Shown here one piece after another: positions 34,337 to 60,335 of a DNA stretch of 64,000 nt. The notes under the pieces were generated by a model, which was not told the origin of the DNA, ran no database searches, and worked only from the letters and a program-made list of their open reading frames with translations. The stretch's first letter is position 1; each line of letters opens with the position of its first letter. Source of the stretch: Umboniibacter marinipuniceus (GTDB taxonomy: Bacteria; Pseudomonadota; Gammaproteobacteria; Pseudomonadales; DSM-25080); assembly GCF_003688415.1 (NCBI RefSeq), contig NZ_REFJ01000005.1, positions 179,890 to 243,889 on the forward strand, given 5' to 3'. Made by a program: the position numbers and the translations under genes.

Positions 34337-36490
34337 ATGTCATACCAAGTTCTCGCGCGAAAATACCGCCCAGCTAATTTCCATGAAACCGTGGGACAAG
34401 AGCATGTGTTGCGGGCGTTAATTAACGCGCTCGATAATAACCGTTTGCATCATGCGTATCTCTTTACGGGCACTCGCGGTGTCGGCAAAACCACCATCGC
34501 GAGAATTCTTGCGAAATGCCTTAACTGCGAACGTGGCGTGAGCTCCAAACCATGTGGCGAGTGTAATGCCTGTTTAGACATTGCCGCGGGCCGATTCATT
34601 GATCTGATCGAAGTGGATGCGGCGAGCAGAACCAAGGTGGAAGATACCCGCGAGTTACTCGACAATATTCAGTACGCACCTACCGCGGGCCGCTTTAAAG
34701 TGTATTTGATTGATGAGGTCCACATGCTCTCTAATCATAGTTTCAATGCACTATTGAAAACACTTGAGGAGCCGCCTCCGCACGTAAAGTTTCTCTTGGC
34801 TACTACTGACCCTCAGAAGTTACCGATTACCGTTCTGTCACGTTGCCTACAGCTTTCGCTCAAGAATATGATCCCCGAGCGAATCGTGAGTCATTTGGAA
34901 ACGGTGTTGAGCAGCGAAGCCTTGAGTTATGAAGAAGAGGCTTTGTGGTCAATTGCTCAAGCGGCCGATGGGAGTATGCGTGACGCGCTTTCATTAACGG
35001 ATCAGGCTATTGCATTTGGTGATGGCAGCGTACAGAGCGTAGACGTGAATGCCATGCTGGGTACTATTGATCGGGGTGTTATTCAGCAGCTGCTACAGTT
35101 ACTCATTGATGGTGAGCGCAAAGCGCTCATGAGTTTCGTTGCACAACTTTCTCAGCAAGCTCCCGACTTTTCCCGACTTCTCAGCGATTTAACCCTCGCT
35201 TTGCATAAGCTCGCCATGTTACAGGTGGTACCAGATTACCCATTACCGGTTGCAATGGACGCCAAGGCATTTGCTGAATTAGCTCAGCGAGTGACCGCGG
35301 AAGATGTACAGCTGTTCTATCAGATAGGCGTTCAGTCGCTCGCTGAGCTTCGGCGCTCCCCTGACGAAATGGTCGGCTTTGAAATGGTTTTGCTGAGAAT
35401 GCTAGCGTTCCGGCCGCAGGGGGTGATCGATATCGAGCATGCTCCAGATGAGCTTCCGGAAGTGCCAACAAAAAAGACGCTACCCCAGTCGGATGAAGTA
35501 GCATCGACTGGGGCCCAAGTCGAAAAAGCTGACATTGAGGTTGCGCATCTATCCAGTAAAGCCGCTAAGCCGCTGGATGAGCGTAGTGAATCGGCTGCTG
35601 ACGATCAGCCTCCCTGGGACGTGGATGGACTACCTGCATCAGCCTCTACGGCGTCCAAAGAGGTGTCCACAAACAATGCAGTGATAGAGCCTTCATCCTC
35701 GCTAGCGGAAGTAACAGCCACCGAAACCGTGCCCACAAACAATGCAGTGATTGATCCTGCGTCCTCGCTAGTGGAAGCAACGGCCACCGAAGCCGGGTCC
35801 ATAAACAATGCAGTGATTGAGCCAGCGTCCTCGTTAGTGGAAGCAACGGCCACCGAAGCCGGGTCCACAAGTATTGAAGTGCCAGAAGCGGTATCAGAAG
35901 CAATTACCGAGTCGGTGCATGATTTCGCACAGGGGGTTAATGAGCCACCCATCGATCATAAAGCGACTATGCCATCAACGGCGGGAACCGACGTTGCCGC
36001 GGCAGCGCTCATAGATTCTGCGATTCCCGCTGATAGCCCTAAACCGACCGAAACAACAGTGGGTCACGTGGCGCGAGGGTTTAGCTTAGACTCGTTAACT
36101 CAGGCGAATTTTCCCGAGTTCGCGTTGCGACTCAGAATGATTGGACCTGCAGGGAGTGCGCTGCATCAGATGTCGCTGCAGAGTGTTGAGGGGAATCAGC
36201 TAAACTTAGTCATGGATAGCGCGCAATCCATGCTGCTAAAAGCGCGTCAGCACGAGCAACTGACCGAGGCTTTTTCGGTTGCACTGGGTGAGACCGTAAT
36301 ACTGAATATTGTAGAGGGTGATCCAGGGTTACTCACTGCATCGTTACGTAGACTGGAGATTGATACTCGACGCAGAGAGCAGGCGATAGCCGAGCTTAAT
36401 AGTGATCCGGTCATCCAGTTTTTGAATCATGAAATGGGTGCCAAGGTTTTACCACACACGGTTGTTTCCCTGGCTCCAGAGGAGTTTTAA
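34337..36490 (+). CDS. dnaX: DNA polymerase III tau/gamma subunit
   Basis: The 717-residue clamp-loader ATPase. Walker A is FTGTRGVGKTTIARILAK near residue 45, the zinc module is CLNCERG..CGECNAC, Walker B is VYLIDEVHMLS near 126, then LLKTLEEPP and sensor-1 TTDPQKLP. Domains I-III end near residue 370; a low-complexity linker (380-590) and the tau-specific C-terminal domain follow. A slippery A AAA AAG at 35470-35476 with a downstream hairpin predicts -1 frameshifting to a 386-residue gamma form. The linker contains three 22-residue repeats. AGGAAGG precedes the ATG. It starts an operon with ybaB and recR; ybaB begins directly after its stop. Confidence 0.97.
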   Translation: MSYQVLARKYRPANFHETVGQEHVLRALINALDNNRLHHAYLFTGTRGVGKTTIARILAKCLNCERGVSSKPCGECNACLDIAAGRFIDLIEVDAASRTKVEDTRELLDNIQYAPTAGRFKVYLIDEVHMLSNHSFNALLKTLEEPPPHVKFLLATTDPQKLPITVLSRCLQLSLKNMIPERIVSHLETVLSSEALSYEEEALWSIAQAADGSMRDALSLTDQAIAFGDGSVQSVDVNAMLGTIDRGVIQQLLQLLIDGERKALMSFVAQLSQQAPDFSRLLSDLTLALHKLAMLQVVPDYPLPVAMDAKAFAELAQRVTAEDVQLFYQIGVQSLAELRRSPDEMVGFEMVLLRMLAFRPQGVIDIEHAPDELPEVPTKKTLPQSDEVASTGAQVEKADIEVAHLSSKAAKPLDERSESAADDQPPWDVDGLPASASTASKEVSTNNAVIEPSSSLAEVTATETVPTNNAVIDPASSLVEATATEAGSINNAVIEPASSLVEATATEAGSTSIEVPEAVSEAITESVHDFAQGVNEPPIDHKATMPSTAGTDVAAAALIDSAIPADSPKPTETTVGHVARGFSLDSLTQANFPEFALRLRMIGPAGSALHQMSLQSVEGNQLNLVMDSAQSMLLKARQHEQLTEAFSVALGETVILNIVEGDPGLLTASLRRLEIDTRRREQAIAELNSDPVIQFLNHEMGAKVLPHTVVSLAPEEF
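35458..35513 (+). promoter_or_regulatory. Programmed -1 ribosomal frameshift signal in dnaX
   Basis: The heptamer A AAA AAG (35470-35476) is in the correct frame (codons ACA AAA AAG, residues 378-380). A 6-nt spacer leads to a perfect 9-bp stem, CCCCAGTCG (35483-35491) with CGACTGGGG (35505-35513), loop 13 nt. A Shine-Dalgarno-like GGAAG sits 7 nt upstream. The -1 frame reads six codons (DATPVG) to TGA at 35494-35496. This is the same slippery heptamer and layout as E. coli dnaX. Confidence 0.9.
35669..35866 (+). repeat. Three in-frame 66-bp repeats in the tau linker
   Basis: Three tandem units start at 35669, 35735 and 35801 and encode 22-residue blocks beginning [TI]NNAVI[ED]P and ending in TATE followed by two to three small residues. 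Units 2 and 3 are nearly identical; a remnant (TSIEVPE) follows. They lie after the frameshift site, so only tau carries them. Confidence 0.88.
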
Positions 36491-49842: not shown

Positions 49843-50265
49843 ATGTCTAATAAAATTTTACCCGCTGTTGCGGCATTGAGCGCAGCCTTGGCTGCTGTAT
49901 CTTCTGCAGACCTTGAAGCTACACCTTTTTCAGCAGAGAACCTGGATAATGGTTATTTTGTCAACTTCGCTGAAGGTAGTTGTGGTGAAGGTAAGTGTGG
50001 CGGCGAAGGTGCTGATGATTCAGAGGGAAGCTGTGGCGAAGGCAACTGCGGCGGTGAAGGCGCTGATGATTCAGAGGGTAGCTGTGGCGAAGGTAAGTGC
50101 GGCGGCGAAGGCGCTGATGATTCAGAAGGTAGCTGTGGCGAAGGTAAGTGCGGCGGCGAAGGCGCTGATGATTCAGAAGGTAGCTGCGGCGAAGGCAAGT
50201 GTGGCGGCGAAGGCGCTGATGATTCAGAAGGTAGTTGCGGCGAAGGCAAGTGTGGCGGTGCCTAA
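49843..50265 (+). CDS. HvfA-like cysteine-repeat RiPP precursor
   Basis: A 140-residue precursor. ATG 49843 has GGGAG upstream. Residues 1-22 form a signal peptide (ILPAVAALSAALAAVSSA). PFSAENLDNGYFVNFA follows, the conserved N-terminal element of HvfA-type proteins. From residue 44 there are five 17-residue repeats, EGSCGEGKCGGEGADDS, and a final EGSCGEGKCGGA; repeat 2 has EGNCG. Twelve cysteines in all, six in EG[KN]CG motifs. In Haemophilus HvfA, Cys in EGKCG motifs are converted to copper-binding oxazolone/thioamide pairs by the MNIO HvfB with HvfC, and homologues of both are encoded next. Modification here is inferred. Confidence 0.9.
   Translation: MSNKILPAVAALSAALAAVSSADLEATPFSAENLDNGYFVNFAEGSCGEGKCGGEGADDSEGSCGEGNCGGEGADDSEGSCGEGKCGGEGADDSEGSCGEGKCGGEGADDSEGSCGEGKCGGEGADDSEGSCGEGKCGGA
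49972..50262 (+). repeat. 51-bp tandem repeats in the RiPP precursor gene
   Basis: Five 51-bp units from 49972 to 50226, then a 36-bp partial unit to 50262. Units differ mainly at synonymous third positions (AGC/AGT, TGT/TGC, GGC/GGT) and one Lys-to-Asn change in unit 2. Such near-identity allows gain or loss of whole modules by slippage or recombination without breaking the frame. Confidence 0.92.
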
Positions 50266-50268
50266 GCA

Positions 50269-51108
50269 TTGACCAAGTTTGCTCAAGTGGATGGTGTAGG
50301 CCTTGGTCTGCGCCGTTCACTGATAACCCAGTTGCAGGCTCCGGGAGGCTGTGACGGCATTGATTTTTTCGAGTTAGCGCCGGAAAATTGGATTAATTTG
50401 GGTGGCCGCTACGCCGATAAACTTCGGTGGTTCAGTGATCGTTTCCCTTTTGTCTGCCATGGGTTGTCTTTGAACCTAGGGGGGCAAGACCCTTTGGATT
50501 TCAAACTGCTAGCTGATATAAAGGCATTTTTGCGTACCCATAACGTGAAGTGTTACTCAGAGCACCTCAGTTTTTGTGGTCACCAAGGCCTCCTGTATGA
50601 TTTGCTCCCAATTCCTTTTACTCAAGAAGCCGTTGTTCACGTTGCCGAGCGTATTCGCGTGGTTCAGGATTATTTAGAACAGCCAATTGCGGTGGAGAAT
50701 ATCTCTTACTATTTGGCACCCAGCCAAGAGCTGTCTGAGCTAGCATTTATTAACGCGGTGTTACAGGAAGCTAATTGCCAACTCATGCTAGATATCAACA
50801 ATGTCTATGTGAATAGTGTGAATCATTGCTATGACGCAATTGATTTCTTGGCGCAAATACCTGGTGAGCGGATTGCCTATGCTCATATTGCCGGTCATGC
50901 TGACGAGGCTGAAGATCTTAAGGTAGATACCCACGGAGCGCCGTTGATTGAACCAGTGCTCAATTTGGCACAGCACTGTTATGGTCAATTCGGATCAATT
51001 CCCACAGTGCTTGAACGCGATTTCAATTTCCCTCCGCTTGCCGAGTTAAAGTTGGAAATAAGCGCCGTAAGGCGTATTCAGGAGAAGGCGCTTGTCGAAC
51101 TTTCGTGA
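50269..51108 (+). CDS. MNIO (DUF692) RiPP-modifying enzyme, HvfB-like
   Basis: A 279-residue multinuclear non-heme iron-dependent oxidative enzyme. [10 protein letters not shown] and [17 protein letters not shown] open the TIM barrel. Candidate iron ligands sit in conserved motifs: H64 ([10 protein letters not shown]), H99 (YSEHLSF), E143 (VENISYYL), D175 ([13 protein letters not shown]), H206 (AHIAGH), D220/H222 (DTHG) and E249 (LERDFN). In HvfB and MbnB these bind two or three irons that oxidise cysteine. No ATG is available; TTG 50269, three bases past the precursor stop, is taken as start, which should hold enzyme levels well below precursor levels. Confidence 0.92.
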
Positions 51109-51814
51109 ACTTCAGGAAGCGCTGGCGGCCAGTGTTAGATTCAAGGTCACTCATGAGGATCTTGATGTTGAACCACGCCGATTGGCAATCTATCAACGGT
51201 TGGTGTTCAACAATCTATTTGGCTTACTAAGTGGTGGCTATAAGAAACTTCGTCGCGCTATGGGCGATGAAGCGTTTCGTCAGCTAGTTCGGTCATTTCT
51301 GGAGTCTGGTGTATCGAAGACACCATACTTTGCTGAAATTTCCGGGGAATTTCTGGAATGGTTTCTAGCGCGTGAGGCGCCTAAATGGCAGCATGAACTC
51401 GCCGAATACGAGCGGGCTGGTATTGTGATTGACGTTGACACCATGGACTGGCCTACCGCTGAAGAGATGGAGAGCCGCCCTCAGGGCGTTCATTTTTCGC
51501 CCGCGATTGCATTATTTTCCTTCGAGTACGCCATTTACGAGGCGGATGATGGCTTAGCTCCACCTAAGCAACCAACCTATATTCTACTCTACCGAAACCC
51601 CCATAATAAGTTGCGATACAAACTACTAAATGCCGCTAGCTTCAGCCTTATGGCACTGCTACTACAGGAGCAAGATCTCAACTCGGCGCTAGCAACCCTG
51701 GCATTAACCATGTCTACCGATATTTCGCATATCCAGTCGCCAGCGCTAAGTCTGTTAGCAGCGTTACAAAGAGAAGGCGCGGTGGTCTCCTTTCCTAACA
51801 TCTCTGCGTTGTGA
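51092..51814 (+). CDS. DUF2063 RiPP partner protein, HvfC-like
   Basis: A 240-residue protein beginning at TTG 51092 with AGGAGAAGG about 7 nt upstream; it overlaps the MNIO gene by 17 nt. The N-terminal half is the DUF2063 DNA-binding-like domain, a helical bundle with [42 protein letters not shown] and [14 protein letters not shown]. The C-terminal half holds [19 protein letters not shown]. In RiPP systems this family binds the precursor and is needed by the MNIO. No hvfD-like DoxX gene follows. Confidence 0.9.
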
Positions 51815-53066: not shown

Positions 53067-54161
53067 ATGGAAAGATCTTTGGATAGTCGTTTAGTTATTG
53101 TGAGTGCTTTGCTAGCACTGACCATGAGTGCCGTTACAAGCGCACAAGACTCCGAAATAGAGTCATCTGCCGTTGCTGCTCAGTCAGAGTCTACTACTGA
53201 GACTGAAGCGGAACTCCCTGCCGTCACCTACGAAAGCTATGGTAGTGATGTTGGTTTTGTTCAAACTCAACCAGTCCCCTACGACGGTGATCCCTTTGAG
53301 GACTTGAATCGTGCCATGTTGACATTCAATGATGTGGCTGACCGATACCTCCTGTTACCCATTGTTACTGGATACAAATACATTACCCCGGACCCCGTAG
53401 AGCGTAGCGTCGATAACATTTTTGCTAACTTAGACGATATCGGTAGTGCGGCGAACTCAATTCTGCAGCTGAAGATTGGTGATGCGGGGGTTTACGCGGG
53501 CAGATTTTTAACCAACACCACAATTGGTGTTTTAGGAATCTGGGATGTTGCCAGTGAATTAGGCATGCGCCGTTTAGAGGGCGAGGACTTTGGTCAGACT
53601 CTGGGCTATTACGGAGTACCAGAAGGACCGTACCTGATGCTGCCATTCTATGGGCCGAGCACACTTCGCGACGCCCCAGCTCGCTATGTTGATAGTTTCG
53701 TGGACTACACAAGTTATGTTGATCACGTGCCTACCCGTAATTCGTTGATGGGCGTTGAAGCCGTAAATGTCCGAAGTCAGCTTATTCAGGCTGAAGCATT
53801 TATCACCGGTGATCGCTATACCTTTATCCGTGATGCCTATCTGCAGCGTCGGCAGTACCTAGTTCTTGATGGGCAGATGCCCGATGACGAAGAATTTGAT
53901 GAGTTTGGTGGCTTCGGTTCAGCTGGTGAAAGCTATGGTGGTGAAAGCTATGGTGGTGAAAGCTATGGTGGTGAAAGCTATGGTGGTGAAAGCTATGGTG
54001 GTGAAAGCTATGGTGGTGAAAGCTACGGTGGTGACGAGGATAGCGATCCCAATCGCGACAATCTATCAGGCAGTGCCGACGATCAGATTGATCCGCCGTT
54101 GAATGAGACGGATGGCCGTTCTGATAACGATGACAAGCTACCCCAAGATAGTGAGTTCTAA
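53067..54161 (+). CDS. mlaA: MlaA (VacJ) family outer-membrane phospholipid-transport protein
   Basis: A 364-residue protein. GDPFEDLNRAMLTFNDVADRY near residue 73, then a helical core and MLPFYGPSTLRDAPARYVDSF near 190, identify MlaA, which removes mislocalised phospholipid from the outer leaflet. The signal sequence (ALLALTMSAVTSA) ends without a lipobox Cys, so this copy seems not to be a lipoprotein. A poorly ordered acidic stretch precedes the core. After the core, seven GESYG repeats (53925-54029) and an acidic Asp/Asn-rich tail extend the protein. No mlaBCDEF genes adjoin it. An in-frame TTG at 53079 is an alternative start. Confidence 0.88.
   Translation: MERSLDSRLVIVSALLALTMSAVTSAQDSEIESSAVAAQSESTTETEAELPAVTYESYGSDVGFVQTQPVPYDGDPFEDLNRAMLTFNDVADRYLLLPIVTGYKYITPDPVERSVDNIFANLDDIGSAANSILQLKIGDAGVYAGRFLTNTTIGVLGIWDVASELGMRRLEGEDFGQTLGYYGVPEGPYLMLPFYGPSTLRDAPARYVDSFVDYTSYVDHVPTRNSLMGVEAVNVRSQLIQAEAFITGDRYTFIRDAYLQRRQYLVLDGQMPDDEEFDEFGGFGSAGESYGGESYGGESYGGESYGGESYGGESYGGESYGGDEDSDPNRDNLSGSADDQIDPPLNETDGRSDNDDKLPQDSEF
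53925..54029 (+). repeat. Seven 15-bp repeats encoding GESYG
   Basis: GGTGAAAGCTATGGT is repeated six times exactly, and a seventh copy has TAC for TAT. The copies stay in frame within the C-terminal extension of mlaA and are recent by their identity. Confidence 0.93.
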
Positions 54162-60230: not shown

Positions 60231-60335
60231 CGCAGACCGCAGACCGCAGACCGCAGACCGCAGACCGCAGACTGCAGACCTCAGACCTCAGACCTCAGAC
60301 CTCAGACCTCAGACCTCAGACCTCAGACCTCAGAT
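60231..60335. repeat. Heptamer tandem array (CGCAGAC / CTCAGAC), 15 units
   Basis: Six CGCAGAC units, one TGCAGAC, seven CTCAGAC and a final CTCAGAT make 105 bp of 7-bp repeats. It begins right after the gltX terminator and runs into the 3' end of recD: the recD stop codon at 60323-60325 and its last codons are array bases. Confidence 0.95.

Follow-up and report, generated by a model that had tools for sequence, protein, structure and literature searches.

A twelve-cysteine repeat gene of Umboniibacter marinipuniceus as a probable captophorin precursor with variable residues before cysteine

In the window, the 64,000-nucleotide stretch of Umboniibacter marinipuniceus DNA analysed here, a repeat-rich gene very probably codes for a captophorin precursor (captophorins being oxazolin-like, EGKCG-type copper peptides), in which the adjoining HvfB would turn the cysteines of EGSCG, EGKCG and probably EGNCG motifs into 5-thiooxazoles. 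By analogy with characterised relatives, all 12 cysteines most likely become copper-binding 5-thiooxazoles, and the Ser and Asn sites most likely do not form a class of their own but represent ordinary variation processed by the same enzyme.

RESULTS

Precursor gene, repeat array and cluster

The N-terminus of the precursor is hydrophobic, has a Sec-type look and ends in AAVSSA, as read by eye (Table 1). The core consists of a full 51-bp unit in five copies (EGSCGEGKCGGEGADDS), each of 17 residues, and a last unit of 36 bp or 12 residues that ends at the stop codon (EGSCGEGKCGGA); Tandem Repeats Finder returns the core array with a score of 455, a period of 51, 5.6 copies and 92% matches, and the 51-bp array far exceeds chance. 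The core cysteines fall into six EGSCG, five EGKCG and one EGNCG motif, EGSCG preceding EGKCG in every unit but unit 2, where AAC replaces AAG and the second motif reads EGNCG. The translation thus agrees with the first-pass annotation, made from the letters alone, on a RiPP-type precursor with two cysteine contexts per unit, 12 cysteines and an EGNCG in unit 2, while its unit length of 17 residues holds for five units and not for the sixth. Units 1 and 2 differ at nine positions, one of which alters an amino acid (Lys/Asn), and every difference between the full units 1, 3, 4 and 5 is a silent third-position change. Scans for promoters (four found, against a mean of 2.2) and for terminators (three found, against a mean of 2.6) stayed near the shuffle expectation.

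Table 1. Features of the precursor locus in window coordinates
Feature	Coordinates	Strand	Basis
Precursor gene, hvfA-like, 140 aa	49843..50265	+	ORF and translation; NCBIfam NF050137
Likely signal peptide MSNKILPAVAALSAALAAVSSA, hydrophobic	49843..49908	+	Translation; cleavage site placed by eye
Repeat core, 12 Cys: five 51-bp units and one 36-bp unit	49972..50262	+	TRF, translation
Unit 2 with EGNCG, AAC codon	50023..50073	+	Translation; EGNCG also in sister loci L006, L007
HvfB-family MNIO (multinuclear non-heme iron oxidase), TTG start assumed	50269..51108	+	PF05114, NF003818
HvfC-family partner (DUF2063 + NGO1945_C), TTG start assumed	51092..51814	+	PF09836, PF22106, NF050145

Three bases separate the precursor stop from the start of hvfB, and hvfC overlaps the end of hvfB by 17 bases. 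HvfB matches PF05114 (E 8e-96) and NF003818 (405.6 bits, cut-off 360) and has a solved relative in PDB 3bww (E 9e-73); HvfC matches PF09836 and PF22106, scores 165.2 bits against NF050145 (cut-off 142) and has a solved relative in PDB 3dee (E 1e-9). The precursor itself scores 80.2 bits in five stretches against NF050137 (KCGExKCG_twice, cut-off 19.5), and this match, together with the adjoining HvfB-type MNIO and HvfC-type partner, places it among the HvfA-family precursors. It scores below the HvfA equivalog, the oxazolin precursor proper (NF050188, 66.3 bits, cut-off 95), and is set apart from Bufferin Buf1 by having neither DUF2282 nor any Pfam family at E<=0.1; the enzyme likewise scores below the Bufferin maturase BufB (NF050167, 240.6 bits, cut-off 310) and methanobactin MbnB (TIGR04159, 34.7 bits, cut-off 325), and lies far under the MbnB, ChrH and ApyH cut-offs. 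These profile matches mark the gene as the precursor component of a cluster of the HvfABC ("EGKCG"/oxazolin/captophorin) type.

Within the genome (2.69 Mb, 16 contigs), the window HvfB is the single PF05114 match and the sole MNIO found, and NF050137 matches are confined to the window locus. Upstream of the precursor lies an ORF that we take, from its sequence, to be an HrpA-like helicase, and porin and MlaA genes follow downstream of the cluster. Other repeats occur elsewhere in the window: a C-terminal extension of the MlaA-family gene (53067-54161) contains about seven 15-bp repeats of the GGESY type at 53924-54034; three 66-bp repeats at 35665-35870 lie in the middle to C-terminal part of ORF 34337-36490, presumably DnaX-like by its sequence; and a 7-bp unit, CAGACCT, repeated 14.6 times at 60233-60334, is flanked by ORFs that we take from their sequences to be GltX-like and RecD-like, and it reaches slightly into the 3' end of the RecD-like one.

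Relation to known systems

The cluster resembles that of Haemophilus influenzae (HvfA-HvfB-HvfC, oxazolin) in what looks like a Sec-type N-terminus, in cysteines paired five residues apart and in the order of the MNIO and its DUF2063 partner. Unlike HvfA, which has three AEGKCGEGKCG motifs (PMC13419390), the window precursor consists of six units in which Ser precedes the first Cys, its linkers are acidic and free of Lys, and no DoxX gene is adjacent; DoxX is frequent in such clusters (PMC12452194), and the single match in this genome sits on another contig. A 17-residue unit with two motifs, as found here, has already been published for the Buf_EGKCG proteins, which are 31-506 residues long and whose EGKCG family is described as Sec-exported; both of their motifs are EGKCG, whereas the first motif of the window unit is EGSCG (PMC12452194). 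A beta-helix model has been published for such proteins (PMC12452194), which our AlphaFold2 run on the precursor and seven relatives neither supports nor refutes (mean pLDDT 42.9, pTM 0.18; no usable fold). C-terminal segments of EF-hand type have also been described for EGKCG precursors (PMC12452194), and three surveyed loci (L155, L171 and L176) encode EGKCG precursors whose C-terminal segments resemble EF-hand loops by eye.

The window enzyme shares with the Fontiphorin system, FonABC, an MNIO of the Lys-Cys group with Arg15, Arg16 and an Asp-Phe pair (D251-F252 in the window enzyme), while the published FonA stretches compared here, unlike the window precursor, have Lys before each Cys (PMC12668002, PMC13097082). 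Two-Cys cassettes are also found in Bulbicupramide MmrABC of Microbulbifer, there described as EGKCG units, the cassettes being preceded by three Lys, in contrast to the Ser-first units and Lys-free linkers of the window; Cys number in the Microbulbifer precursors varies from five to eight, and both Cys of a cassette undergo conversion, which in cassette 1 either of them still does after mutation of its partner (PMC12538549).

The residue preceding cysteine

Among 390 genomes of the order, 176 carry an HvfB over the cut-off; the 150 of these 176 matches that were listed, with the window and two sister species, give 153 loci, of which 143 have a precursor recognised upstream (10 dropped). A survey of named records, with alignment A1 as the query, gave 80 named loci, 62 of them with a precursor (18 dropped); the single window HvfB as a query against the genome contigs gave 22 pattern matches and no relatives. 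The two surveys overlap, several contigs being of equal length in both, and are not independent. Since frames were read from stop to stop, a few of the counted Cys precede the true start codon.

Among the matches listed in the order survey, the 1108 Cys-Gly cysteines of the 143 precursors are preceded by Lys in 952 cases, Ser in 89, Ala in 14, Asn in 13, Arg in 9, Thr in 9, Gln in 8, Glu in 4 and other residues in 10, so that Ser is the commonest non-Lys residue (89/156). It is again the commonest in the named records, standing before 59 of 450 Cys and accounting for 59 of the 122 non-Lys cases (62 precursors). Precursors in which at least half of the cysteines lack Lys number 21 of 143, corresponding to at least 10 state changes on an HvfB tree (FastTree), among the matches listed. 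Ser-first, Lys-second pairs fill L175 (G219), L195 (G023, as ASCG) and the first part of L217 (G013); EGSCG occurs in named records of Alcanivorax, Alloalcanivorax, Lysobacter and methanotrophs, and L272 (MAG Gammaproteobacteria OFTM78) has 12 consecutive EGSCG with Lys-Lys pairs flanking both ends. L210 has four EGACG with an intact enzyme alongside, EGECG stands first in L142 and L132, and outside the genus EGNCG is found in L017, L025 and L288. The precursor of L273 (MAG Gammaproteobacteria bin55) is an EGECG precursor with only Glu before Cys. The Arg-Arg pocket of the enzyme is kept in 143 of 143 loci, and the Phe after ERD in all 142 readable enzymes, the 143rd (L007) being cut off, among the matches listed. 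On these counts the residue before Cys is loosely constrained, with Lys usual and Ser, Ala, Asn, Thr, Arg and Gln recurring, and the window precursor is, by the same sequence comparison, a further member of a known copper-peptide family across which such variation is tolerated and recurrent.

The comparison within the genus and family comprises two other genomes, G001 (locus L007) and G002 (locus L006), both with an upstream ORF whose C-terminal end is like that of the window's presumed helicase ORF and with a B gene downstream, which is cut short in G001. G002 carries an array of six units, of which units 2 and 4 contain EGNCG and unit 2 is two residues shorter. In G001, 11 Cys are preceded by S K N A S N S S N S K, giving three EGNCG, and both EGSCG and EGNCG are found at first and at second pair positions. 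Because the sister loci vary here, Ser, Asn, Lys and Ala appear to swap freely before Cys within the genus; the Asn codons AAC/AAT lie a single base away from both Lys AAG and Ser AGC/AGT. The EGNCG of unit 2, which had been put forward as a natural test of motif specificity, is thus not alone.

Evolution of the repeat units

Between the window species (G000) and G002, hvfB differs by 142 bases of silent codon changes and 60 others, of 837, and with about 188 silent sites the silent positions are, on this estimate, near saturation. Over the 30 bases of the double-Cys block, the between-species average is 4.7 differences for same-position units and 4.5 for other pairings, while within species the units differ by 3.8 in G000 and 5.4 in G002. 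Because silent divergence between units is about that between species, the units are probably mostly old, and their high protein identity points to constraint more than recent expansion. The DNA identity of the units had been read as a sign of copy-number change between strains; it does not mainly reflect recent copying, as the silent differences are at about the between-species level except in pairs 3/4 and 5/6. Units 3/4 and 5/6 of G000 and 5/6 of G002 differ by one base only in the double-Cys block, which suggests local duplication or conversion, and unit 4 of G000 is identical there to unit 5 of G002. One-to-one orthology between the units of G000 and G002 was considered and rejected: 460 of 720 permuted orders, the true one included, fit equally well or better, and the units are therefore unmatchable one to one. 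The EGNCG common to unit 2 of both species may be inherited or recurrent. As for the change in repeat number expected between related genomes, copy number varies in 25 of the 27 genera with at least two members, but G000 and G002 both keep six units.

Position within the pair and charge

In pairs five residues apart, among the matches listed, 40 of 402 first Cys and 10 of 402 second Cys have a residue other than Lys before them; by genus, eight have more non-Lys at the first and two at the second, of 57 with pairs (among the same listed matches). The asymmetry is much weaker in the named-record set (11 first and 8 second, of 132 pairs). A functional rule distinguishing first from second Cys was rejected on the split of 8 against 2 genera and on its hardly repeating in the named set, and the asymmetry is a suggestive hint only. 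In the window's genus, a non-Lys residue precedes the first Cys in 17 of 17 pairs and the second in 6 of 17.

The window core holds 5 Lys and 27 Asp/Glu. Its net charge of -0.22 per residue is the sixth lowest of 143 (median +0.02), those of the sisters rank second and fourth lowest, and its pI is about 4.05 against a median of 7.7, all among the matches listed. Acidic charge is the genus's clearest real peculiarity, shared by L142, L132 and L210.

DISCUSSION

By analogy with published relatives, HvfC would recruit the precursor and the HvfB iron oxidase would move along the chain in the cytoplasm, converting all or nearly all Cys, each to a 5-thiooxazole with loss of four H; Sec would then export the modified product, which may chelate or buffer copper in the periplasm. 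In those relatives, 5-thiooxazole has been assigned, with four H lost per Cys, and copper binding shown (PMC12668002, PMC13097082). A mixed-valent di-iron cofactor has been reported for HvfB (PMC13419390).

Conversion of all 12 Cys is favoured because FonBC processed substrates in which Ala, Arg or Thr stood before Cys in both repeats (PMC12668002, PMC13097082), because the ring takes the backbone oxygen of the preceding residue and not its side chain (PMC12668002), and because Ser recurs before Cys while the pocket residues of the enzyme are kept. The premise that only EGKCG fits the modification motif finds no support in the same FonBC substrates (PMC12668002) or in the order-wide recurrence of EGSCG beside enzymes with the same pocket residues; a different fate for the EGSCG cysteines becomes a weak inference when Ser is the commonest non-Lys residue and the pocket is conserved. 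The position is not free, since Phe or Glu before Cys severely impaired processing by FonBC, and Pro was tolerated at no site (PMC12668002, PMC13097082). Against conversion of every Cys, FonBC is a different enzyme and enzyme-specific preferences exist, and the stronger retention of Lys at the second Cys could mark a functional difference. The term 'EGSCG' is absent from the literature searched in one collection, thiooxazole papers included, and the FonBC variants named in the available text of PMC12668002 include neither Ser nor Asn before Cys.

It is quite improbable that only the Lys-Cys sites are oxidised while Ser-Cys and Asn-Cys stay thiols, forming disulfides or binding metal in a mixed thiol/thiooxazole peptide. 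The uniform lack of Lys at the first Cys in the window's genus (17/17, against 6/17 at the second) would fit this, as would the order survey, where Lys is kept at 392 of 402 second Cys and 362 of 402 first Cys among the matches listed; however, FonBC acts on substrates carrying Ala, Arg or Thr before Cys (PMC12668002), precursors with few or no Lys-Cys sites stand beside intact enzymes (L210 and L272), and in G001 neither EGSCG nor EGNCG keeps to one position. Although the MNIO superfamily catalyses many reactions (PMC12452194), a different modification of the Ser-Cys sites by the same enzyme, for example through the Ser side chain, is highly improbable: all characterised MNIO-PME1 products carry 5-thiooxazole (PMC12668002), HvfB is over the cut-off of its own family and far under those of MbnB, ChrH and ApyH, and its pocket residues are unchanged. 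Since the genome holds one MNIO, there is no sign of another oxidase that could carry out a second chemistry.

The rarity of Asn before Cys (13 of 1108, among the matches listed) and its absence from the FonBC variants named in PMC12668002 would be in keeping with a dead site at the EGNCG of unit 2, with this Cys unmodified and conversion at the 11 others. We consider this unlikely, as the presence of EGNCG in both sisters and in L017, L025 and L288 argues that it is tolerated by selection, and because Asn is a one-base step between Lys and Ser codons, drift is expected to pass through it. Conversion of Ser, Lys and Asn sites alike by a single HvfB is the reading we prefer.

Rather improbably, the genus could represent an acidic, Lys-poor captophorin branch in which Lys has been lost before the first Cys of every pair and mostly kept at the second, the second Cys serving as the docking or entry point of the oxidase with the first as follow-on, or the two rings holding copper differently. 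If so, Ser-, Ala- or Glu-first, Lys-second pairs in unrelated genera would reflect selection and not drift. As natural tests of specificity, the EGECG precursors of L273, L142 and L132 are sharper than the Ser and Asn of the window, Glu having impaired FonBC in vitro. In the window precursor, one chain places Ser, Lys and Asn before Cys under one MNIO and would give an internal readout of position specificity; its importance is modest, as the expected answer is that every site converts.
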